From positions 1 to 41,896 of IMG/VR virus record IMGVR_UViG_3300027996_000003: a stretch of DNA of 41,896 nt, one strand, 5' to 3'. The DNA is from a virus. Positions 1-41,896 of this stretch are shown one piece after another. The notes beneath the pieces are model-generated. The model saw only the letters and a list, made by a program, of their open reading frames with translations, did no database searches and was not told the origin of the DNA. Within the stretch, counting starts at the first letter, position 1, and every line of letters begins with the position of its first letter. The translations under genes were made by a program, and so were the position numbers.

Positions 1-127
1 CCTTGCTTGACTTTGACGTGTCTGACAATATCGGCGGGCGAAACGTAATTAAGTCTACGCTGTTTTTGAGAGCGACGTCATGGGGTGGATTGTCTCTCGG
101 CGGTCAAGCTATGCGTATGGATGTTGT
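1..127. repeat. Terminal overlap, left copy
   Basis: These 127 bases are identical to 41770-41896. The reading frame of the gene ending at 527 continues exactly through the joined ends. A length of 127 matches a common assembler k-mer, so this is most simply the overlap of a circularised contig and not a biological terminal repeat. That last point is inference. Confidence 0.93.
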
Positions 128-527
128 TGGTCTTTTGCATAAAAACCTAGATGACTGGATTCCTTATTCAACTAGTACGACTTCGGATGTAACTTTTGAT
201 TATTATGACACTAGCGCGACCAGTGCGTGGCGTACTAATATTGGTACATTCTGGGAAAGCACTCCAAACGACGGAATGACTACTTCGTATCCATTCGGTG
301 CTGGAGATCAGTTTTGGGGTATAAAATCTGATACAACATTTACCGATTGGGCTGATGACGGAATAATTACAATAGACGTAACTGAAATTATGCAAGCCTG
401 GGCTGCTGGAGAGCGAGAGGGTGGGTTGATGCTCTTTGGAGCTCGGTCTGGAAGTGCAAATCCGGTATTTGGTAATGTAAATTGGACGGCGACACATAGG
501 CCGTACTTGGAAGTCTTTACACAGTAG
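1..527 (+). CDS. C-terminal part of secreted SGNH-like/tandem-95/DNRLRE protein
   Basis: This is the 3' end of the gene that starts at 39453; joined across the ends, the product is 947 residues. The segment is a DNRLRE-type beta-sandwich. It has the hallmark FDVSD near its start, a central VTEIMQAWAAGE (family pattern: DVT..vqaW..G) and a terminal RPYLEVFTQ (family pattern: RPYLEV). DNRLRE domains are found at the ends of secreted and cell-surface bacterial proteins and are not typical of phage fibres. The stop codon TAG (525-527) is followed directly by the GTG start of terL, so the two genes are probably translationally coupled. The first 127 bases duplicate the window end. Domain assignment is by motif reading only. 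Confidence 0.85.
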   Translation, partial: LLDFDVSDNIGGRNVIKSTLFLRATSWGGLSLGGQAMRMDVVGLLHKNLDDWIPYSTSTTSDVTFDYYDTSATSAWRTNIGTFWESTPNDGMTTSYPFGAGDQFWGIKSDTTFTDWADDGIITIDVTEIMQAWAAGEREGGLMLFGARSGSANPVFGNVNWTATHRPYLEVFTQ

Positions 528-8199: not shown

Positions 8200-11063
8200 T
8201 GCAGCGGTTTAGATTTGACTCATGGGGTGCACTTAATCAAGAAGTTGAGCCTGAGTATGTAGAACAGGGCGAGCTTGTTGAATGCGAGAATATAGACCTC
8301 TCTGTTACTGGTAAACTTAAACCAGCAATAGAGAACTCTATAAAGCTCAATACATCCACTGTGTTTACGGATCTCGATGACGCTTCAATACCCAAATACT
8401 TAACATGCCTTGAATCACCATCTGGCTGGACTCCTGCTAGTTGGGGTGAAAGTAATTATGATTACATTCTATTCTTCAAGAAAGAGTACGTTGTCTGCTA
8501 CACTGGCTTAAATAAAAACACAAAAGTACTTGATACAGACATGCCTGACACTGTTCATGACTTATACACATCATCAACTCTAGATAGCATTAGTATATCA
8601 AAAATCGGCGACTCTTACATAATCGTTGACGGCGGCACTAATAAGAAGTGGGCCGAAGATGTACTTATAGGCATTGGGCTTGATTACAGTGGATCTGAAG
8701 TTTTAGATGAACAGGTCAAGCCACAAATGTTTGAGCTGAAACCGTCAAATAGTTCCGCCCATGGAGAGCCAGACCAAAAATGGCTATGCATTTGTAGCCA
8801 TGAAAACGAATCGCCAATAGTGGGTTTTCATTGGTCAACGCAGATACTCGCTCTTGAAACAATTCGTCCACACGAATGGAAGCTCCCTTGGGGGATGGCT
8901 ATCTCCGAGTTAGCATCTACCTATAGATTCCTTTATTTCTACAAAGCTAATCTCTTCAGTTCTGAGTTGGATACAGAAATATTAGAAAACGTTGAGTTGT
9001 CTGGATCGTCCTATGCAGGTGGGAGTAAGTGGTATTACGAGACGGAATGGATAGAAGCTAATCCTACAAACTGGTGGCCTGTGTGGAATATTAAGACAGA
9101 CCAGCTTTATCCTAGTGGAGATGGATATTGGTGGGAGGAGTATAATATAGACACAGACACTCTTACTACTGGCGATGCTGTTGCAAAAGACTGGTCTACT
9201 ATTTCTCCTGATGACAGTATGAATGGATATTGGTACATACAAGACCCGGACGATATTCATGGAATGGTATATTTCTTAATGTTTTATTCCGGCAGTAGGG
9301 TATATCCAACATTCTCTTCATTAAGTATAGGAGTAGACTCTATTCCTGACCCATCTTCTATTTGGAAAGATGCAATGGAGATGAATATATGGAAATTGTA
9401 TTGGGGAACCCCATACACTAACCACCTTCCAAAACATTCATACTCTATCGGACCTGTAGAGGATTCCGTTACTTCTATTTTTGGGCCTGACTTTACTGGG
9501 TATTATGAATTTGCAGCAACACTAGAAAGCTTATTTGCTGTACATGGTGTTGAGGAATCAGACATGTTCAGTGAAACAATAGAACTCAATAATGACTTCA
9601 CTGCCATAGTTAGCACAACTGCCTTAACTAGACTTATCGATAACAAACTGTGGTCTGAGTTGTGGCCAAGGCCTACATCAAGAACTTACGGAACAGCTGG
9701 AGTTATTCCCCATGATTTCGTTAACCCAGGAAAGGTTTATGCTGTAAGGTATATTTATAGAAGCGACAACATAGACACAATGCTTACTCCCCTTATTTAT
9801 CTTAACGATGAAAATGAGGAGGGGTTTCATGAAGGGATAGAGGTTACGGCTGGTGCTGTTGTGAGAATCACAATTGGGCTATGTCTACAGTACATGCTGG
9901 TTGATGGTACTCCTGAAAATGTGTATTGTGAGATATACCGTGGCGACTCCGATGGTGATCTTTATAATCTTGAAACAATTCCTGTAGCCGCGACGCCATC
10001 AGACTTGTCAGCCTCAATTACTCATCTTGACTACTACGACACAAGCGCCGATGCCAACTTAAGCACAGTCCTTGAAGCGTCTGATTATTCAGCGATAGCT
10101 CCTCCGGCTGGCGCTATAGCATCTGAGTATGTAGCAGATCAATTATATCTAGCTAAGGGCTCAAAGCTCCACTGGAGCGACTATGGAGCTCCGGAACAAT
10201 TCTCAGAACTTCACACTACTTTGTTCGACGAGAACATAACAGCCCTTGAGAACATAGGCGGCAACCTTGCTGTGATAATGCCGGGTTCAATTAATGTCTA
10301 CAGGCCGATCGATGAAATCGGAGTAATACAGAAAAGTCTATCTGAGGTTGGATGTGAGTCTGATTCTAAAACAGCAAACTCTAAGTCTCTTGTGTTCTTG
10401 ATAAACGACGATGCGCTGTGGGGATTTAACGGAACTAAGTCGGTGAAGATATCTGGCCCAGCTAAGACGTACTATGACGCAATAATAAGCGGTGGAAGCA
10501 ATATTCTTATTGAAGCAAATATCATGAATCTCTATATAGCATATACAGACTCATCTGATAACTGCAGAACGCTTAAGCTCTCTGCGTCTGGTAAAAACAG
10601 GTGGGGACTTATCGATCCTGGTATACAAGTCTACGGGCTTTGCAGTACTCCGGATAATAGAATTATTGCATGTGGAGCAAAACTAGTTAATGAGGATTAC
10701 GTTGAAGCCTTCTCAAGTATTGAGGGTGGGACATCAAGAACAGAAGAAGACTACAAAGTCGTAACTGGAATAATGAGATTTATGGATCCCGTAGCCCTGC
10801 GTGGTGTTAGCGCCATGTCGAAACATTTTATTGGTACATCTGGAACAACTGTAACGGTAATTGCTAGATCGCTTCTTGATACTGTTAGTAATATAGGCAG
10901 AGTGTTGTCAGAAAGCGGGAATTGGTTTAGAGATAGGTTTAATATAAAATCAACAGCTGGACGAGCAAGTACAATACAAGTTCAAATTGAGGGAAATAAA
11001 TCAGACGTTAAAGAAGTCATAGTGGAGGTGAGTGGAAATGGGCCAACAGCAGCAGCCAAATAA
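8199..11063 (+). CDS. Tail hub / nozzle-type structural protein
   Basis: 954 residues. N terminus FDSWGALNQEVEPEYVEQGE followed by ENIDLSVTGKLKP resembles the opening of podovirus tail-tube/nozzle proteins (T7 gp12-like role), where a 'gG.n...p.....gelv.a.N...' pattern is usual. The body is beta-rich with many aromatic residues. Toward the C terminus a conserved-looking section reads YLAKGSKLHWSDYGAPEQFS and later LVFLINDDALWGFNG, like propeller blades. No signal peptide. Starts in the previous stop (TAATG) and its 3' end overlaps the fibre gene by 26 bp. A nozzle role is inferred from position and size. Confidence 0.68.
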   Translation: MQRFRFDSWGALNQEVEPEYVEQGELVECENIDLSVTGKLKPAIENSIKLNTSTVFTDLDDASIPKYLTCLESPSGWTPASWGESNYDYILFFKKEYVVCYTGLNKNTKVLDTDMPDTVHDLYTSSTLDSISISKIGDSYIIVDGGTNKKWAEDVLIGIGLDYSGSEVLDEQVKPQMFELKPSNSSAHGEPDQKWLCICSHENESPIVGFHWSTQILALETIRPHEWKLPWGMAISELASTYRFLYFYKANLFSSELDTEILENVELSGSSYAGGSKWYYETEWIEANPTNWWPVWNIKTDQLYPSGDGYWWEEYNIDTDTLTTGDAVAKDWSTISPDDSMNGYWYIQDPDDIHGMVYFLMFYSGSRVYPTFSSLSIGVDSIPDPSSIWKDAMEMNIWKLYWGTPYTNHLPKHSYSIGPVEDSVTSIFGPDFTGYYEFAATLESLFAVHGVEESDMFSETIELNNDFTAIVSTTALTRLIDNKLWSELWPRPTSRTYGTAGVIPHDFVNPGKVYAVRYIYRSDNIDTMLTPLIYLNDENEEGFHEGIEVTAGAVVRITIGLCLQYMLVDGTPENVYCEIYRGDSDGDLYNLETIPVAATPSDLSASITHLDYYDTSADANLSTVLEASDYSAIAPPAGAIASEYVADQLYLAKGSKLHWSDYGAPEQFSELHTTLFDENITALENIGGNLAVIMPGSINVYRPIDEIGVIQKSLSEVGCESDSKTANSKSLVFLINDDALWGFNGTKSVKISGPAKTYYDAIISGGSNILIEANIMNLYIAYTDSSDNCRTLKLSASGKNRWGLIDPGIQVYGLCSTPDNRIIACGAKLVNEDYVEAFSSIEGGTSRTEEDYKVVTGIMRFMDPVALRGVSAMSKHFIGTSGTTVTVIARSLLDTVSNIGRVLSESGNWFRDRFNIKSTAGRASTIQVQIEGNKSDVKEVIVEVSGNGPTAAAK

Positions 11064-12462
11064 AGCAAATGACGACAAGTTTGAAGAGAGAATGGGCGAC
11101 ATAGAATCAAGGCTTGAGGTGCTTGGCACTGACATCATGCGAGAGCGGCATCGAACAAAAGTAGAAATAACTAATGCTGTGAACACGGTCTCCACAGTAC
11201 AGGGTCTCCCTGGGGCCTCCGGTGTGGATGGTTCTGAGGGCGTTAGTGCAAGAGGCGTAAGTCTGTCAGTTACCGATCAAACGATAGAATTTAATACTAA
11301 TGGAGACGACCCGTCTCCTACATCGGTGACATTTACCTCTGCCGCCGTGAATTCTAGCTCTACTGTTTATTATGAATTCTTTCTTGATGATGTGTCTCAG
11401 CAGAATACGACAGATGACTATTGGGAATACGATACACACGGTCTTACATATTCAGACATGCCTAAGAAGGTAGAATGCCAGATTAGAGAAGATTCATCGA
11501 CTGGTTTAATACTGGCTCGCGACCAGATTAACCTACAGGGCTTAATGGCAGGTAGTGATGCTGTTACTACAGTGCTATCAAACGACGCACATACTATGCC
11601 TGTGACGGTAGCAGGAGTAATCGATTACACTGGCTCTGGAACAGACATAGAGGTTTGGGTAGGTACTACACAGCTGAGTTATGGCACTGGCGACATGGAA
11701 TACCAGGTAACAGCAACAAGCACAAACATTACTGCCAGTACTCCAACTACTGAAGATGGTACAGATGGTGGAGATATTAGACGCTATCCAGATCATAGCG
11801 GATCAATGCCAGCCAACACCGACTTAATAAGCTACGCTATCGCTGTTAAAAACGAAGCTGGCGTTTCTATGCACTTTACAAGGGTACAGACTTTCTCAAA
11901 GTCCTGGGAGGGCGCAGCTGGTGTGGATGGAATCAATGTTGATGTCGCCTTTAACTTCCAGACAGATGATACATATTCTGATCTGGATGCAAGTGGAGAT
12001 ATTGCCGACGTAAATGATGGAGTTATTCTGACAAGTAGCGGCTGGGACTATACGGAGAACTGGGATATCAATAATAACATAGATTCTTCTTACATATTCA
12101 CAGCGCCAAAGGATGGGATATATTTCTTTTCAGCTGAATTGTATGTGTCATGGTATCAGATTACGTCAGGTGCGGGGGATCATCCTAGATGTAGAGTGGC
12201 TTGGGATGTAAGTACCAATGGCGGCACTACTTGGACTGTTTATGCAGTCAGAGCTGCTGCGAGCGATTTCAAAGGACTCGTCGGTGCGACAGCCGCGCAA
12301 GCATGGTGGTGGCCTTATGTAATAAAGCCATTGGCGGAAGATAGCCAGATTAGAGTAAGACTTTGTTGCGATAATATTTACACAACTGGCTCTTACGGAG
12401 CGACAGTTACGGCAGGTAGTGAATTTGCTGGTCATCTGATAACACCAGAATATCCGGTATAA
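11038..12462 (+). CDS. Tail fibre with collagen-like hinge and C1q-like tip
   Basis: 474 residues. Residues ~1-55 form a charged coiled coil (GDIESRLEVLGTDIMRERHR) suited to trimerisation and docking. A short collagen-like Gly-X-Y run (GLPGASGVDGSEG) follows, then Ig-like beta domains, a second small Gly-rich hinge (GAAGVDGIN) and a C-terminal jelly-roll. The tip resembles C1q/TNF-like modules: SYIFTAPKDGIYFFSAEL, then alternating strands with QIRVRLCCDN, ending EFAGHLI. Such C1q-like heads are known on trimeric receptor-binding fibres. The start is ATG 11038, since GGAGG lies 9 bases upstream; GTG 11032 is an alternative. Probably the main virion receptor-binding protein. Confidence 0.72.
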   Translation: MGQQQQPNKANDDKFEERMGDIESRLEVLGTDIMRERHRTKVEITNAVNTVSTVQGLPGASGVDGSEGVSARGVSLSVTDQTIEFNTNGDDPSPTSVTFTSAAVNSSSTVYYEFFLDDVSQQNTTDDYWEYDTHGLTYSDMPKKVECQIREDSSTGLILARDQINLQGLMAGSDAVTTVLSNDAHTMPVTVAGVIDYTGSGTDIEVWVGTTQLSYGTGDMEYQVTATSTNITASTPTTEDGTDGGDIRRYPDHSGSMPANTDLISYAIAVKNEAGVSMHFTRVQTFSKSWEGAAGVDGINVDVAFNFQTDDTYSDLDASGDIADVNDGVILTSSGWDYTENWDINNNIDSSYIFTAPKDGIYFFSAELYVSWYQITSGAGDHPRCRVAWDVSTNGGTTWTVYAVRAAASDFKGLVGATAAQAWWWPYVIKPLAEDSQIRVRLCCDNIYTTGSYGATVTAGSEFAGHLITPEYPV

Positions 12463-25959: not shown

Positions 25960-25981
25960 GCGTCTTCTTGCTCCTTATTGG
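25953..25981. terminator. Possible bidirectional terminator at convergent ends
   Basis: Inverted repeat CCAATA...TATTGG (6 bp, 17-base loop) spanning the stop codons of the two convergent operons, with TTT on the right. The stem is weak, so this is only a candidate. Confidence 0.25.
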
Positions 25982-26310
25982 TTTACAACTCTGTGTATGA
26001 TTCCGCATCCACCTGGCTCGCCTAAGTCAATAAGTGGCTCACTCTCAGTTGACCACACGCCAGCCCTGCCAAACTCGTCAACACCACGAACTCTGATAAG
26101 CGATAGTCCTACTGGCATGTCCTGGGTTAGTGTTGGGTTTATGACTGTGCCAAACGGTTCCCAGTCTCCGCTATTCACTCTTAGCTGAACATCATAGTAG
26201 GCTACTGGTGTGCCTGTCGTTGGTGCTGTCCATGTGTAGGTTACTTCCAAAGCATAGGATGGGCCTACTGTCATCATCATTAAGATGATAGCTGTGATTA
26301 GATTCTTCAT
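25975..26310 (-). CDS. Secreted small Fn3-like protein
   Basis: 111 residues. Clear Sec signal peptide: MKNLITAIILMMMTVGPSYA, likely cleaved after A20. The mature part is a single beta-sandwich resembling fibronectin type III (VTYTWTAPTTGTPVAYYDVQ, then a GLSLIRVRGVDEFGRAGVWS core, the usual 'y.vrv.a.d..G..s.ws'). ATG 26310 follows AAGGAG and overlaps the previous stop (ATGA). It is the last gene of the leftward block. An envelope-acting role such as altering the host surface is inference. No catalytic motif. Confidence 0.78.
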   Translation of the reverse strand: MKNLITAIILMMMTVGPSYALEVTYTWTAPTTGTPVAYYDVQLRVNSGDWEPFGTVINPTLTQDMPVGLSLIRVRGVDEFGRAGVWSTESEPLIDLGEPGGCGIIHRVVNQ

Positions 26311-30423: not shown

Positions 30424-31806
30424 CTAAATTAAATCAAGTATCGCGAGACCCTTCCTCTTGTCAACAGGAGACCATCCTGCAAGCATCACAGCTTCACGAA
30501 TCAAAACCTTACTTCCTCCGCCGTTAGCTAAATCCAAAGCTTGAAGTGATTTTCTCATACCGAGATCATATCTCAAGCCGTGTTCTTTAGCATAGGCACG
30601 TATAGCCTTCATGGACTCTGTAATCCACTCAGCCTTCTCACAGTCTCCTAGAATAGCAGACTCTAAGTTCTCGTCTAATCCCCATGGAATAGTTACAAAT
30701 CTTGATAGCACAGATAAGTCCTGCTGTCTAGCAGAAACATACATTGCATCAGCGCCGTGCCCCATTGTGTTACCTGTACCAATAACTACTAGATTATCTT
30801 GAACTGCCACAGTTCCATCAGGAAACGTAACAGGATCTCCAGGCCCAGAGGCTAGGATGTTGTTCAGAGTCACCAGGATGCTCTCGTTGCAACGATCCAT
30901 CTCATCGAGCAGCAAGAGTGCTCCTGCAAAATAAACGTCTGTACCCTCCACTGCTTGCCTTAGAGGAGTGCTTACATAATTGCCAGTTGCGCTGTGATAA
31001 CCAAACAGCTGCGACTGTGGAGTTTGTGGCCCCATAGAAAGCGGTAGATATTCAAGATTCAGTGCTTTCGCAATCATCGCAGCAGCCCTTGATTTGCCAC
31101 CACCAGAAGGCCCGGCCAGATAAGAATTCAATCCAGCGCCAGCAACGGTTAGTAGATCTTCAAATCGACTGTGAGCTAAGCCGATATTGATGGGTCTAGC
31201 TGGAGCAGGTTGAGCTACTTCAATGATGTTGGGCTTTTTATGTTCTTCCATAACTTTCGTCATCTCCTGTCTAACGACAGAAGACACAAGCTGGTTAAAC
31301 ATGTCCCTTGATGATAACTCTGGCTTGCTTGGATCACTTGACTTTTGTGAAGTTACAGGCATAGCACTGACTACCTCACCCGTAATCCTGTTTCTAGTTT
31401 CCTCAAAACTATCCTCAATAATCATCTCTATATCATAACCATTTCTTTTATAAATATGCGAGTCAATGCTCTGGGTGCACAATTCACCCCAAAGGGAATA
31501 TTCATTAAAAAGCTTGTCGCTCATCTCGGACTTGTTTCCGGAGATGTTTCCATCAACAACTTTATGTTCTTTCAGATATTTAAGAAAATCACCTAAATCT
31601 GTTTTTTGCACCATTTGTTCAATCCCAGCAGAGACTCTGTCTTTGCATAAGGGGTCCGGGTGCATATAAGGCAACCAGTATTCCGTCTCGCCCTCGTAGT
31701 TACCTGGTAGACTGTGAAGAATAATTGCCCTCGTGACTACGCGGACAATTCTCTGATGAGATGGTCTCAGCCCATCATAGTTTACTTGAATAGGTAAAGT
31801 ACCCAT
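30424..31806 (-). CDS. MoxR/CbbQ-type AAA+ ATPase
   Basis: 460 residues. N-terminal ~200 residues of unknown fold, then a AAA+ core. Walker A is GPSGGGKS (232-239), Walker B LLLLDE (297-302), sensor 1 TGN (344-346), a probable Arg finger R369 (VLSRFVTIP), and NMLASGPG-like spacing after Walker B (NILASGPGD). The MoxR/CbbQ/NirQ/CobS clade pairs with vWA-domain proteins to remodel targets. A vWA-like candidate is encoded upstream in the same operon (34755-35591). ATG 31806 follows GGAGG. Confidence 0.85.
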   Translation of the reverse strand: MGTLPIQVNYDGLRPSHQRIVRVVTRAIILHSLPGNYEGETEYWLPYMHPDPLCKDRVSAGIEQMVQKTDLGDFLKYLKEHKVVDGNISGNKSEMSDKLFNEYSLWGELCTQSIDSHIYKRNGYDIEMIIEDSFEETRNRITGEVVSAMPVTSQKSSDPSKPELSSRDMFNQLVSSVVRQEMTKVMEEHKKPNIIEVAQPAPARPINIGLAHSRFEDLLTVAGAGLNSYLAGPSGGGKSRAAAMIAKALNLEYLPLSMGPQTPQSQLFGYHSATGNYVSTPLRQAVEGTDVYFAGALLLLDEMDRCNESILVTLNNILASGPGDPVTFPDGTVAVQDNLVVIGTGNTMGHGADAMYVSARQQDLSVLSRFVTIPWGLDENLESAILGDCEKAEWITESMKAIRAYAKEHGLRYDLGMRKSLQALDLANGGGSKVLIREAVMLAGWSPVDKRKGLAILDLI

Positions 31807-34754: not shown

Positions 34755-35591
34755 TTAACCAGTCATTAGCTTGTCTCTTGTTAATCTTGAAAGCCATTCA
34801 ATGCCTTCATCTATGTCCATGTCCATTAAATCCTCTGTCTGAACAATGACATCATAGCCTTTCGGAGCATCTCTCTTGGTAAGCTCCACGCTGCGACCAT
34901 AGCCGGATCCATATTGCTCCCACAGCCACTCCTCCTCACGCTCCATGCAGGCAAACTTAATCCTCCTAAGCAAAGTAGTGTGACCGAGATAATAAGCCAA
35001 CCTGTCGCCAGGCATAGGCTCTGATGGCTCCTTGCAGCGCATGTAGTAAGTAATGTGATAATCTTCTCTTGTTCTTACGTGGAAGAATATCGTGATGCCA
35101 ACACTTATCCCACTCCTTTCGAGATAATCCGCATACGAGGCAATTATTATGCCCCTCTCCATAATGTCCTCACTATCTGATCCGCTATTAATACCACGAC
35201 AGACAAGAAGCTCGACAGTTCTTGCTTTTATCGGAGAACACGCTTCGCTGATCATGTTTTCTGGAACACCCTCAAGAAAGCGATCAATATCAACCGTATG
35301 ACCAGTGACATCATATGCATCGTGAGGCTTTGGAATCTTACTGAGATTAATAGTCTCAAGATTACCCTGTACGGCTTTCTCAAGTCTATCTGCGCCTTCA
35401 GGCCAGCCCTGCTCAGCTAACACTAAAGCTTCCTCCCATGTACCACCAGCCCAGCTAATCTCATCGGTAGAAGTACTTGATGGACTTCTAACCCAACTAG
35501 GCAAAGGACTCAAGGCTCTGTCCATAAGATCTGTTGGATTATCAAAGTAACGAATAAGCCGTTTCTTCTCCTTGTCCAACTCAACCCTCAT
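34755..35591 (-). CDS. DUF7192-like, probable vWA-type partner of the AAA+ ATPase
   Basis: 278 residues starting MRVELDKEKKRLI (ATG 35591; GAGGAGG just upstream; a longer frame to 35693 overlaps the neighbour and lacks a site). Contains ISWAGGTWEEALVLAEQGWP, the marker of a phage family otherwise noted next to CobS/MoxR ATPases, then DIMERGIIIASYADYLERSG, typical of vWA-like folds ('rG.ai..l.d.Le..G..v'). The classic MIDAS motif DxSxS is not evident, so this would be a divergent vWA-like protein. It probably serves as adaptor for the ATPase at 30424-31806. Family name is from memory of the pattern. Confidence 0.6.
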   Translation of the reverse strand: MRVELDKEKKRLIRYFDNPTDLMDRALSPLPSWVRSPSSTSTDEISWAGGTWEEALVLAEQGWPEGADRLEKAVQGNLETINLSKIPKPHDAYDVTGHTVDIDRFLEGVPENMISEACSPIKARTVELLVCRGINSGSDSEDIMERGIIIASYADYLERSGISVGITIFFHVRTREDYHITYYMRCKEPSEPMPGDRLAYYLGHTTLLRRIKFACMEREEEWLWEQYGSGYGRSVELTKRDAPKGYDVIVQTEDLMDMDIDEGIEWLSRLTRDKLMTG

Positions 35592-35892
35592 GGCTACCTC
35601 CTCGATAAATACGATGACCATCGTCGTTGTATACTTCGTCCACACGAAGCACTTTTCCGACTCCATGCCTTGCGACCATGATGTAACCATCAAGGCCTCT
35701 CAGCTCAATCTCGACACCCTTAATACCCTTATACTTATGGAACAACATGCTCCATATAATCAAGGCTTCAGCTAGGGTGGTAGGGTTCTGGTGCTCTTCG
35801 TTAGCTGGCCCTATGTAGTAAGGGCGCTCAGAGCGCTGTGAGTGTCTGTGGGGCTTCTCATATTCCCACACACTGATTTCTAATACAGACAT
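35581..35892 (-). CDS. Hypothetical protein
   Basis: 103 residues. ATG 35892 lies 7 bases after AGGAGG; the upstream ATG 35898 is too close to that site. Mixed alpha/beta composition (PTTLAEALIIWSMLFHKYKG; IKGVEIELRGLDGYIMVARH). Ends overlapping the next gene by 11 bp. No family. Confidence 0.62.
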   Translation of the reverse strand: MSVLEISVWEYEKPHRHSQRSERPYYIGPANEEHQNPTTLAEALIIWSMLFHKYKGIKGVEIELRGLDGYIMVARHGVGKVLRVDEVYNDDGHRIYRGGSHEG

Positions 35893-38160: not shown

Positions 38161-38991
38161 GTGTCTAATAAAAGAAAACCAGGTCCTAAACTGAAGAAGG
38201 GACCGAAGTCAAAAGTAAAGCCTCTTGATAAGAGGTCGAAGGCCTACAAGAGGGGCCGGGTCATGGCGACCGATCCACGCGTTGGATTCAATCTTCTCGA
38301 TAACCGCGAATTCCTATTATTTCTAGAGCAATTTGGCTATAACATGTCCTGGGCAACAGATGCCTGTGGATTAGCGCATGGCTCTATGCTTCAGCGTGCA
38401 AAACGCCAGGGCTGCCAAGCAGAGATCAGAAGGTTGAGAGCCGACTGGGAAGAGAAGAACGGGTCGGTAGAGCAGGCCTTTAAGATGCAAGACGCACGAA
38501 TAGCGGCGAAGCTTGTTGTTACAGAAATTGAAGAACGTAGAAAGATAGATGCAGAAGAGCTAAAGATTAATAAAGCCAAGATAGGCCAGGAGGAGGTCTA
38601 CAGGGCGATATGCAATGCAGGTGGAATATTAGGAGACGCGGCTACTTTCCTTAGAGCCGCAGGACACGAACTCACAAAATCAGCACTGGTGCGAATGGTT
38701 GCGAATGATGAATATCTCCAAGAAGCCTGTGAGCTGGGCGAAAAGGAGCTTCATCTATACATCCGCGACGATATTCTCTCGGCATCCCGCGGGCAAATGA
38801 CTCCAAAAAAAGAACAAAGTAAATGGATGTTACAAATGTCAAAAGCCAGAATGGGATGGACGGAGAAGACTAAGGTTGAACATAGCGGCTCAGTTGGTTA
38901 CGATACAAAAGCACTGCCTACAGACCTGAAGGAGCCGGATCTTCCGCCTCTTTCTGTCGTTAATGGCGGTTTGAAAAAAGAAGAGGATTAA
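38161..38991 (+). CDS. terS: Terminase small subunit (TerS)
   Basis: 276 residues, GTG start (first available after a stop at 38155-38157). Alternative ATG lies at residue 35, preceded by a GAGGGG stretch. Basic N terminus (SNKRKPGPKLKKGPK), then helix-turn-helix-type regions: DNREFLLFLEQFGYNMSWAT, and GILGDAATFLRAAGHELTKS followed by ALVRMVANDEYLQEA. The C-terminal MSKARMGWTEKTKVEHSG is a common TerS ending ('..GW.e...vehsG'). Recognises the packaging site and activates TerL. First gene of the rightward block. Confidence 0.82.
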   Translation: MSNKRKPGPKLKKGPKSKVKPLDKRSKAYKRGRVMATDPRVGFNLLDNREFLLFLEQFGYNMSWATDACGLAHGSMLQRAKRQGCQAEIRRLRADWEEKNGSVEQAFKMQDARIAAKLVVTEIEERRKIDAEELKINKAKIGQEEVYRAICNAGGILGDAATFLRAAGHELTKSALVRMVANDEYLQEACELGEKELHLYIRDDILSASRGQMTPKKEQSKWMLQMSKARMGWTEKTKVEHSGSVGYDTKALPTDLKEPDLPPLSVVNGGLKKEED

Positions 38992-39096: not shown

Positions 39097-39465
39097 GTGT
39101 TTAGAAAAATTTTGATTACAATGATGCTGCTTGTCGCAGCGGGCGTTTCGGCGCTTGAGTTTGGTGGATGGGGGGACGCTGTAGAGGTTCTTGTGGAAGA
39201 TGACAGCAATGTGTCTTATTTGTCTGATGACATGAGCAATATTACCAAGTACGGTGGCTGGACGATCTTCCTGCCTTCCGACGCAGCTGCGACGGTTACT
39301 TTTCATCGCGGCAGAGGTAGTACTGGCGTGAGTGGCTCGTATGAGACAGCTGGTATTACGCTGTCAGCAGGTGAGCAGTTTACATTTCCTGGTAAAATTA
39401 CAGATTTGAAGTTCGATGATCCTACAGCTAATGTTACTGTGGCGGTATTCCCTTGGGTAAAATAA
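39097..39465 (+). CDS. Small secreted protein, beta-rich
   Basis: 122 residues. GTG start after GAAAGGA with a typical spacing. Signal peptide FRKILITMMLLVAAGVSA, predicted cut before LEFGG. The mature part is beta-rich (GGWTIFLPSDAAATVTFHRG, LSAGEQFTFPG, ANVTVAVFPW), without cysteines or catalytic motifs, as in small adhesin/decoration modules. The following gene starts inside its end (overlap 13 bp), so the two are coupled and probably act together outside the cytoplasm. Confidence 0.68.
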   Translation: MFRKILITMMLLVAAGVSALEFGGWGDAVEVLVEDDSNVSYLSDDMSNITKYGGWTIFLPSDAAATVTFHRGRGSTGVSGSYETAGITLSAGEQFTFPGKITDLKFDDPTANVTVAVFPWVK

Positions 39466-41896
39466 GACTAATATTTATAGTCGTCTTTTTTGCCACACTA
39501 ATTCTACTAGTGTCGTCTATGCCGTCGTATTCGCAGGTTACTAAAAAAATATTCTTCCCGCACCACAGTATGGGGTCAAGGCTTGTTGGAAATCGATATC
39601 CGGCAGCGCAGCCATCGCAGCAGTATCAGCTACCCGCATACAATGGTGAAGACACCACCTGGCAGATACTTATTCCAATTAATGCACTTAACATAGAAAA
39701 TGGAACTGATGTTCAGTTCTTTCAGTGGGATAGAGAGGATTCTGGATATACATCCAGTACAAATCGCTGGGTAAGGGACGACTTTGATGATGGCCCGGAT
39801 TATACTTATATAACTGATGGTAGTGAATATTTTGATTTAAGCGCCGCAGATGGTTATGGGGCACCGTATTCTTTGATGGGTGAAAATTCTCCACCAGGAA
39901 ACTATCCGACCGTTCTTTATGACCTGTGGGCTCAAGATTCAGATGGCTACATGGGTGACCAAAACTACCCTGTGTATACTCATCTTCCTATTAATCTCGC
40001 CAATGAATTCGACGTAATAGTCTTAAAGAGCAGCTATCAAACGACGCAGTGGTGGGGAGCTGATGGAGCCGAACGAACTCTATATGAAGTATTCGGAAAC
40101 ACAGAAAGAGATGATGGGGATGACACAAGAGAATCGATTTATGAGTATTACTTCGAGACACAGGATTTGATGCTCGCTTTGGCGGATGAGCTTGCAGCTC
40201 ATTACCCAGAAACAATTTTTGTTTATATCGGCCTGGCTCCAAGACAAAATCGACACGATACACCTACTTATGATGATCAAATTACAGAAGAAGTCGCTCA
40301 GGCTTCTTATGACTTCAACGCCTGGTGTAGGTCCGAATGGGTATATCGACAACCTAATCTGAGGTATTTTGCCTGGTACAGTTATTTGGCTGATTTGGAT
40401 CCCGAGTCTGATGATTACATGGCGCTTCTCGATGAATACGAACATAATCCAGGCTCTGATTCAGATAGTCACTGGTCGTTCTCTAGGGGTGAAGTTGTTG
40501 GTGAAATCTTTGGTGAATATTTATATAATCTGGCAGTAGCGGAAGATTCAGGTGTAGGATTAGACAACGAGACATACAGGGAGTGGGGGCCGGATTATGA
40601 TGGCGCGGATCCCTGGGGGAACTCACCACCAACATTTGGTTTAATTCAAAACGCTACTTCAAGAGAAGATTCAAATTATGAACTTGATTTAGAGCAATAT
40701 GTGTCTGACGTAGATGAAGACCCGTTGACGATTTCGGTTATCGGCACATACTCAAATGTTGCTGTCGAAATGATTAGTGATTTTATAGTCAGAATTACAC
40801 CAGACGCGAACTGGCATGGAGAAGTGCTTGATGTAACTATGCAGGTAACTGACGGAGTCGCCACGGCGAACTCTGATTTTGATATAGTATTTACGCCAGT
40901 AAACGATCCACCTACTATTACTGACTTTCCAGCATATTTCGAGTGTGATGAAGATGATGCTGTTGTAGAAGATTTGTCTGACTGGACTCATGACATAGAT
41001 GGTGATGATTTAATTTACAAGGTTTCCGGTGGAAACAATATTAAGGTTTATGTATCTGGGTCCAATGTTATCTTTCACCCACAATCCAACTGGAATGGCA
41101 CTGAAAGATTTACATTCTTTGTCCAAGACGAAGTATCCAGTTCTACTTCTGTGAGTTTTGATATTGTAGTTAATCCAGTTAACGACGCACATACTCTTGA
41201 GTTTGGCACTCTTAATCTTCGACTGCCAATTGGTAGCGTGACGAATTTCGACATCTCTTCATATATTACCGACATCGACAATGAGGAAGAGATATTTATT
41301 ACGGATGTCACGAACTTGTCGGCTGGCGACATTATTGCTACATACAGCGGTAATGTGATTGAGTTTAGTTTGCTTTCGTCTGATGTATATACCGGCCAGG
41401 AGACCTTTGAGGTTACGGTGGAAGATCTTGACAATACTGACACGGATATATTTACAGTCGAGGCTTATACTCCTGTTTCCCTAGATGCTACTACAAAAAT
41501 CGAGCCAGGGCTTTTGACGGGTTACTCTACACGCCTTGCGTCTGCGTCTGGTTGGGGCTTGACGCTTGTTATGCCAAAAGTAGAATCCTGGGTATTTAGT
41601 AACTCCTCAACAATGTACACTGGCGAATATACTCACGAAATAACCTCAGTTGGTGGTAGTGGAGAATTAAATATAAATTCTACAACAACGCCAAGAGGTG
41701 CATCAGATCCGCTTAGGTTTAAGGTTAGTGGGGATGGTTGGCCAATAGATGCGTATAGTGAAATTGCTGCCTTGCTTGACTTTGACGTGTCTGACAATAT
41801 CGGCGGGCGAAACGTAATTAAGTCTACGCTGTTTTTGAGAGCGACGTCATGGGGTGGATTGTCTCTCGGCGGTCAAGCTATGCGTATGGATGTTGT
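39453..41896 (+). CDS. Secreted SGNH-like/tandem-95/DNRLRE protein, N-terminal part
   Basis: Continues at position 1; total 947 residues. TTG start overlapping the previous gene, with a strong signal peptide (IRLIFIVVFFATLILLVSSM, then PSYSQ). Residues ~30-360 resemble SGNH-hydrolase-like proteins (KIFFPHHSMGSRLVG near 33-46; DSDSHWSFSRGEVVGEI near 334). A catalytic serine would be S39. Three cadherin-like/tandem-95 beta repeats follow (about 390-680), with boundaries marked by VNDPPTI and VNDAHTL and Asp-rich calcium-type spots (SDVDEDPL, DIDGDD). DNRLRE lies at the C terminus. A large exported protein coded between terS and terL is unusual. Probable surface-modifying or adhesive exoprotein; enzyme activity is inferred. 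Confidence 0.72.
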   Translation, partial: MGKIRLIFIVVFFATLILLVSSMPSYSQVTKKIFFPHHSMGSRLVGNRYPAAQPSQQYQLPAYNGEDTTWQILIPINALNIENGTDVQFFQWDREDSGYTSSTNRWVRDDFDDGPDYTYITDGSEYFDLSAADGYGAPYSLMGENSPPGNYPTVLYDLWAQDSDGYMGDQNYPVYTHLPINLANEFDVIVLKSSYQTTQWWGADGAERTLYEVFGNTERDDGDDTRESIYEYYFETQDLMLALADELAAHYPETIFVYIGLAPRQNRHDTPTYDDQITEEVAQASYDFNAWCRSEWVYRQPNLRYFAWYSYLADLDPESDDYMALLDEYEHNPGSDSDSHWSFSRGEVVGEIFGEYLYNLAVAEDSGVGLDNETYREWGPDYDGADPWGNSPPTFGLIQNATSREDSNYELDLEQYVSDVDEDPLTISVIGTYSNVAVEMISDFIVRITPDANWHGEVLDVTMQVTDGVATANSDFDIVFTPVNDPPTITDFPAYFECDEDDAVVEDLSDWTHDIDGDDLIYKVSGGNNIKVYVSGSNVIFHPQSNWNGTERFTFFVQDEVSSSTSVSFDIVVNPVNDAHTLEFGTLNLRLPIGSVTNFDISSYITDIDNEEEIFITDVTNLSAGDIIATYSGNVIEFSLLSSDVYTGQETFEVTVEDLDNTDTDIFTVEAYTPVSLDATTKIEPGLLTGYSTRLASASGWGLTLVMPKVESWVFSNSSTMYTGEYTHEITSVGGSGELNINSTTTPRGASDPLRFKVSGDGWPIDAYSEIAALLDFDVSDNIGGRNVIKSTLFLRATSWGGLSLGGQAMRMDV
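41770..41896. repeat. Terminal overlap, right copy
   Basis: Identical to 1-127 (127 bp). See the left copy; it marks the circular join and must not be counted twice. Confidence 0.93.

Follow-up and report, generated by a model that had tools for sequence, protein, structure and literature searches.

A phage gene directly upstream of terL encodes a predicted exported multidomain protein with an SGNH-like lead domain

The window, by which we mean the whole stretch of DNA that was analysed, comprises 41,896 bases and represents an IMG/VR virus record. Bases 1..127 are identical to bases 41770-41896. An assembler running at k = 127 leaves a repeat of just this length on a closed contig, so the exact terminal repeat is probably an assembler overlap of that size, and the identical ends indicate that the contig closes into a circle of 41,769 bp. 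An open frame of 947 codons spans the join (39453..41769 + 1..527), with a TTG start and a TAG stop. The sequence-only reading had assigned a 947-residue protein to 39453-41896; the frame proved to be real, but this interval holds only residues 1-814, and the DNRLRE match discussed below falls outside it. The GC content of the gene is that of the genome, which rules out that the gene is foreign by composition. The features around and within the gene are:

38161..38991, plus strand: 276-aa frame at the place of terS, with which the rightward late operon opens
39097..39465, plus strand: second, small (122-aa) protein, predicted to be exported, with signal-peptide-like N-terminus MFRKILITMMLLVAAGVSA
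39453..41769, plus strand: first part of the 947-aa gene (TTG start), which continues at window 1-527
39453..39536, plus strand: predicted signal peptide, residues 1-28, MGKIRLIFIVVFFATLILLVSSMPSYSQ (11-residue hydrophobicity 3.2, net charge +2)
39537..40566, plus strand: HHSxG SGNH-like hydrolase domain, around residues 29-371, matched by the cellular-family profile
39561..39575, plus strand: HHSMG motif, residues 37-41, with candidate nucleophile Ser39, aligned with the HHS of all cellular members
40458..40475, plus strand: DSDSHW, residues 336-341, with candidates Asp338 and His340 (family consensus D-S-H-P)
40626..40868, plus strand: Cadherin_5/tandem-95 repeat, residues 392-472 (Pfam, 44.7 bits, cut-off 26.5)
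40902..41165, plus strand: Big_9/tandem-95 repeat, residues 484-571 (Pfam, 52.4 bits, cut-off 23.6)
41205..41492, plus strand: probable third beta-repeat, around residues 585-680, seen by eye only, with no profile match
1..127, no strand: contig-closing repeat, exact copy of 41770-41896
1..527, plus strand: last part of the 947-aa gene, TAG stop at 525-527
165..515, plus strand: DNRLRE (CBM96-like) domain, residues 828-944, matched by NF033679
528..2198, plus strand: terL (phrog_2, E 2e-16), which begins right after the stop of the 947-aa gene

With its P22-type portal, phrog_2 terL and phrog_9953 capsid, the window is probably a short-tailed phage whose lineage is little known. Among several hundred IMG/VR contigs, the nearest relatives of its capsid reach no more than about 41-44% identity, and the closest annotated record that was found is Podoviridae sp. 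ct52p938 (MW202803). Among the leftward genes are RuvC, an Erf-like annealing protein, SSB and a CobS-like AAA protein. The latter (phrog_249; 30424-31806, minus strand) lies in one leftward cluster with a DUF7192 protein (34755-35693, minus strand), and MW202803 also carries a relative of the AAA protein. A 111-aa protein with a signal-peptide-like start (25975-26310, minus strand) looks FN3-like by eye and matches phrog_31 (central tail fibre J) at 1e-7. A 476-aa protein at 11032-12462 has, by eye, a collagen-like start and a C1q/TNF-like end, and probably serves this phage as its actual tail fibre. The rightward operon follows an AT-rich gap and runs from the frame in the terS position (38161) via the 122-aa gene (39097) and the 947-aa gene to terL. 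The 276-aa frame at 38161 matched no terS profile in Pfam, PHROGs or NCBIfam; its position and its terS-like C-terminal sequence suggest that it is terS. The 122-aa gene (39097-39465) and the start of the 947-aa gene share 13 bases, and tblastn in phages recovered no relatives of the 122-aa protein.

As ranked with a simple scorer of our own making rather than a trained predictor, 6 of the 1,107 open starts in the genome were signal-like, and that of the 947-aa protein came out strongest, with the most hydrophobic core. KIRL and 16 mostly hydrophobic residues stand immediately ahead of the SGNH-like domain. The signal hinges on the TTG start at 39453, which is not preceded by a clear ribosome site; initiation at the in-frame ATG at 39519 would delete it. 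Together with the repeats and the C-terminus, this start bears out the earlier proposal of a multidomain, surface-type protein, with export itself being predicted.

No match to the lead domain was recovered from Pfam, NCBIfam, PHROGs or a sequence search of the PDB. The search for its family was seeded by the motif FKSC-P, which served solely as a starting clue and was subsequently put to the test by means of profiles and controls. In Planctomycetota, the motif search yielded proteins with HHSCG, FKSCFP, FNxWL and DSHP blocks, and profile searches widened this HHSxG set to distant members in Planctomycetota and Verrucomicrobiota. A profile built from 11 cellular members scored the window domain at 32.2 bits, where the best of 2,000 shuffles reached 6.3 bits. 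The cellular-only HHSxG profile was also run against 3,657 background frames, which were derived from the window and the fetched loci, with the HHSxG family's own loci left out. Here, a protein of a second phage contig (L125) was recovered at E 5e-41 and the window protein at E 2.2e-7, the third match having an E-value of 0.56. The match of the window domain is full-length and above background, and the domain is collinear with the HHSxG family over its whole length, from HHS through D-S-H. Several of the cellular members likewise have signal-peptide-like starts and extra domains. On these sequence grounds, the lead domain belongs to an HHSxG clade of exported cellular proteins, which constitutes an unnamed family.

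Relatives of the lead domain come from cellular genomes and are scarce in viruses. The second phage copy is a 545-aa protein with an HHSCG domain (L125:9509-11146, IMGVR_UViG_3300042731_003254), which carries two hydrophobic segments at its N-terminus, ahead of the domain, and is flanked by a beta-helix protein and fibre-like genes. L125 is a 52.7-kb tailed-virus contig in which terL-like, capsid-like and 2,612-aa tape-measure-sized frames can be discerned by eye. It was the single match among the 51 records and genomes searched for the HHSxG domain, the other 50 being devoid of it. Queries with the window protein itself were less productive: tblastn with the SGNH part gave no match in phages or plasmids, pattern scans of viral and genome contigs using the window protein alone gave no match either, and the window domain, searched against 294 Planctomycetota genomes and 398 from Pseudomonadota, returned noise only, as judged from reading the frames. 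Similarly, an HHSxG profile of three close members found no match in 299 Pseudomonadota genomes.

The window domain is highly divergent (27% to the cellular member L124, alignment A8) and contains large insertions. The FK[SH]C[FY]P motif of the family is absent and the window reads LKSSYQ; in other words, FKSC-P has degraded to LKSS-Q. DSHP has changed to DSHW, and the PN and HP motifs are degraded as well. Given the degraded FKSC-P and DSHP motifs and the absent Asn block (see below), the enzyme could be dead or altered.

The connection to the SGNH/GDSL fold was evaluated at the level of the family. Comparison of the HHSxG family with GDSL in hhalign gave P-values of 8e-4 (local) and 3.5e-4 (global), whereas reversed and unrelated controls ranged from 0.14 to 0.97, and Pfam Lipase_GDSL_2 matches one HHSxG member (L117) at 5e-4. 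The relationship of the clade to GDSL/SGNH is real but weak, and we regard it as support and not as proof. With respect to Block I, Ser39 aligns with the invariant Ser of HHS, which is placed near the GDS block in the global alignment at low column confidence. In Block V, the DSHP of the family matches the HP region of GDSL and the window keeps Asp338 and His340, although the D-x-H spacing is one residue shorter than the usual SGNH D-x-x-H. An equivalent of the Block III Asn (GxND) was not seen in the window at KSSYQTTQ, a region where the HHSxG family is variable too. For the fold prediction proposed earlier for residues 30-360, AlphaFold models of the domain alone and with a partner from L125 had pLDDT values of 36 and 32, both below 40 and too poor for use. 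Fold searches with both models returned no significant match; the second low-pLDDT model gave non-significant GDSL/CE2 esterase matches (E 0.7-1) amid unrelated folds. The SGNH-like lead domain that had been read from the sequence thus stands as a distant member, in which Ser39 and Asp338-x-His340 are kept and the Asn block is not, and we infer an SGNH fold and catalysis on that basis.

The two repeats above their Pfam cut-offs connect the middle of the protein to the tandem-95/cadherin-like surface proteins, although only two or three copies are found. The NCBIfam tandem-95 model (NF012211) scored 66 bits, under its cut-off of 90, and is clear by E-value. Likewise, NF033679 scored 25-32 bits, under its cut-off of 34, with E-values of 1.5e-5 to 1e-7. 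Of this DNRLRE model, the second part is matched by the C-terminal 117 residues and the first part is unmatched. The expectation of a carbohydrate-type C-terminus is corroborated by this match, at a sub-threshold score. The DNRLRE domain is akin to the alginate-binding CBM96 (PMC9971899). Its original description came from surface proteins of archaea and bacteria (PMC2447325), and an Aeromonas phage has one protein annotated as DNRLRE (PMC12512217). In phages, tblastn with the DNRLRE part gave no match.

It had been suggested that the gene interrupts the terminase pair. The comparison with phages with related capsids does not sustain this view, as the interval between terS and terL is variable and often contains fibre and exported-protein genes. 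Between terS (phrog_2538) and terL, gaps of 1.4-3.8 kb were found in L036, L025, L053 and L070, and these gene-bearing intervals rule out that the pair is broken in the window phage alone. In L011, the interval holds a tail-collar gene (L011:2211-2867, phrog_8763, 4e-36) and other fibre-like genes, and in L057 and L069 there is almost nothing between the two (the terS of L070, L011 and L057 was assigned by likeness to profiled terS). The intervals of L053 and L070 also hold a protein that combines a signal peptide, a Thr-rich stalk and a hydrophobic segment at the C-terminus, and L042 and L047 encode similar exported proteins a few genes upstream of terL, with a head that is PA14-like at 6e-5 in L042 and more weakly so (0.085) in L047. 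The predicted exported proteins a few genes upstream of terL are L053:3488-4846, L070:3460-4803, L042:2369-3973, L047:2636-4000 and L080:1031-2020; all have a signal-peptide-like start, and most a Thr-rich stalk and a hydrophobic C-terminus. In yet another related phage, a PhoD-like phosphatase is annotated between terL and portal (L004:3699-4832, MW202489), a further enzyme encoded in the packaging region. With its variable length and its fibre and exported-protein genes, the terS-terL interval is a slot for host-contact cargo.

What the sequence shows is the frame, the gene order, the repeats and the family to which the lead domain belongs, and on these we base a proposal for function to which we give an even chance: the 947-aa protein would be a late-expressed, Sec-exported, multidomain carbohydrate esterase that acts on surface glycans of the host or its neighbours. 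After export via Sec and removal of the signal peptide, the HHSxG SGNH-like domain (Ser39, Asp338, His340) would hydrolyse an ester of a surface polysaccharide, most likely an O-acetyl group. The two or three tandem-95/cadherin-like repeats may form a stalk that spaces the esterase domain from the DNRLRE end, and the DNRLRE/CBM96-like C-terminus may bind sugar and so retain the protein on the glycan. The late position and the predicted export suggest that the protein would act late in infection and outside the cytoplasm, on the surface or matrix sugars of the infected cell itself. Progeny that are released would then neither be caught by nor re-enter the spent cells. Substrate, timing and benefit to the phage are what we infer here.

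The main competing explanation is that the protein is a tail fibre or spike of the virion with an SGNH deacetylase domain, like gp63.1 of phage G7C, in which case the N-terminus would not be a working signal or translation would start at the ATG at 39519. As a member of the structural operon, the gene could equally encode a virion protein, which counts against the exported-esterase reading; moreover, phage receptor-binding proteins commonly carry SGNH domains (PMC13123978, PMC9569702), the relative L011 has its tail-collar fibre in the same terS-terL interval and the L125 copy adjoins a beta-helix protein and fibre-like genes. Nevertheless, we consider a fibre unlikely. The strongest signal-like start of the genome stands directly before the domain, and an N-terminal virion attachment domain in its place was not observed. 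Neither the window protein, which lacks a PHROG tail family match in line with the earlier view that it is no tail fibre, nor the L125 copy matches a known fibre family, and the membrane/export segments with which both start argue against a fibre. Furthermore, tandem-95 and DNRLRE are modules of surface proteins, and the window holds another fibre-like candidate (by eye) at 11032-12462.

The degraded FKSC, PN and HP motifs could also mean that the protein is exported and not catalytic, an adhesin or lectin that binds glycans as a decoy, a receptor mask or cell-cell glue, for which repeats and DNRLRE would be suitable as binding or structural modules. However, Ser39, Asp338 and His340 have been kept despite wide divergence elsewhere, which makes this quite improbable. 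Even less credit can be given to the possibility that the gene is cargo from the surface-protein repertoire of bacteria without a part in the lytic cycle, for instance a lysogenic-conversion gene. The cellular and hardly viral distribution of related domains would agree with it, as would the absence of the gene from 50 further records and genomes of phages whose capsids are related, but the gene overlaps its upstream neighbour, abuts terL, matches the genome in GC and has no promoter or terminator of its own that stands out, and none of the genes inspected was noted as an integrase.

Compared with the HHSxG proteins of Planctomycetota and Verrucomicrobiota (L109-L120, L123 and L124), with which it shares the full-length lead domain, the window copy is phage-encoded, is combined with tandem-95 and DNRLRE, contains insertions and has degraded FKSC and HP motifs. 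With the SGNH deacetylase fibres of phages it has in common that a phage-encoded SGNH-type hydrolase presumably acts on surface polysaccharide. The SGNH domains of Escherichia phage G7C gp63.1, Pectobacterium phage Possum gp66 and Klebsiella prophage receptor-binding proteins are proven esterases or polysaccharide deacetylases (PMC9569702, PMC13123978), and since such fibres deacetylate polysaccharide or show esterase activity, deacetylation would be the likeliest reaction for the window enzyme as well. Yet these proteins are virion fibres, Possum gp66 being described with an attachment domain, whereas the window protein combines an export signal with surface repeats, a DNRLRE end and an SGNH-like domain of a different clade. 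Seroconversion acetylases and glucosylases act as transferases in the membrane and attach groups, mostly in lysogens. Like these enzymes the window protein would change the glycans of the infected cell, but it would do so as an exported esterase from a late operon.

The known SGNH deacetylases of phages belong to tail fibres and serve during entry. If the proposal is true, the window enzyme would work during exit or on the infected cell as a whole, and the escape of progeny from trapping by spent cells or matrix becomes a question that can be tested with one gene. More generally, and rather doubtfully at this stage, some tailed phages may export a sugar esterase with a carbohydrate-binding tail that strips or alters the glycans of the cell that is being left; it would be a late, external counterpart of receptor-destroying activity, and its gene would occupy a terS-terL slot in which related phages carry other exported surface proteins. 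Two further gains of the analysis are an SGNH-like family that had no name and a cargo slot between terS and terL that is worth mining for exported phage proteins, and the gene suggests that a phage may remodel the surface of its host from the outside.
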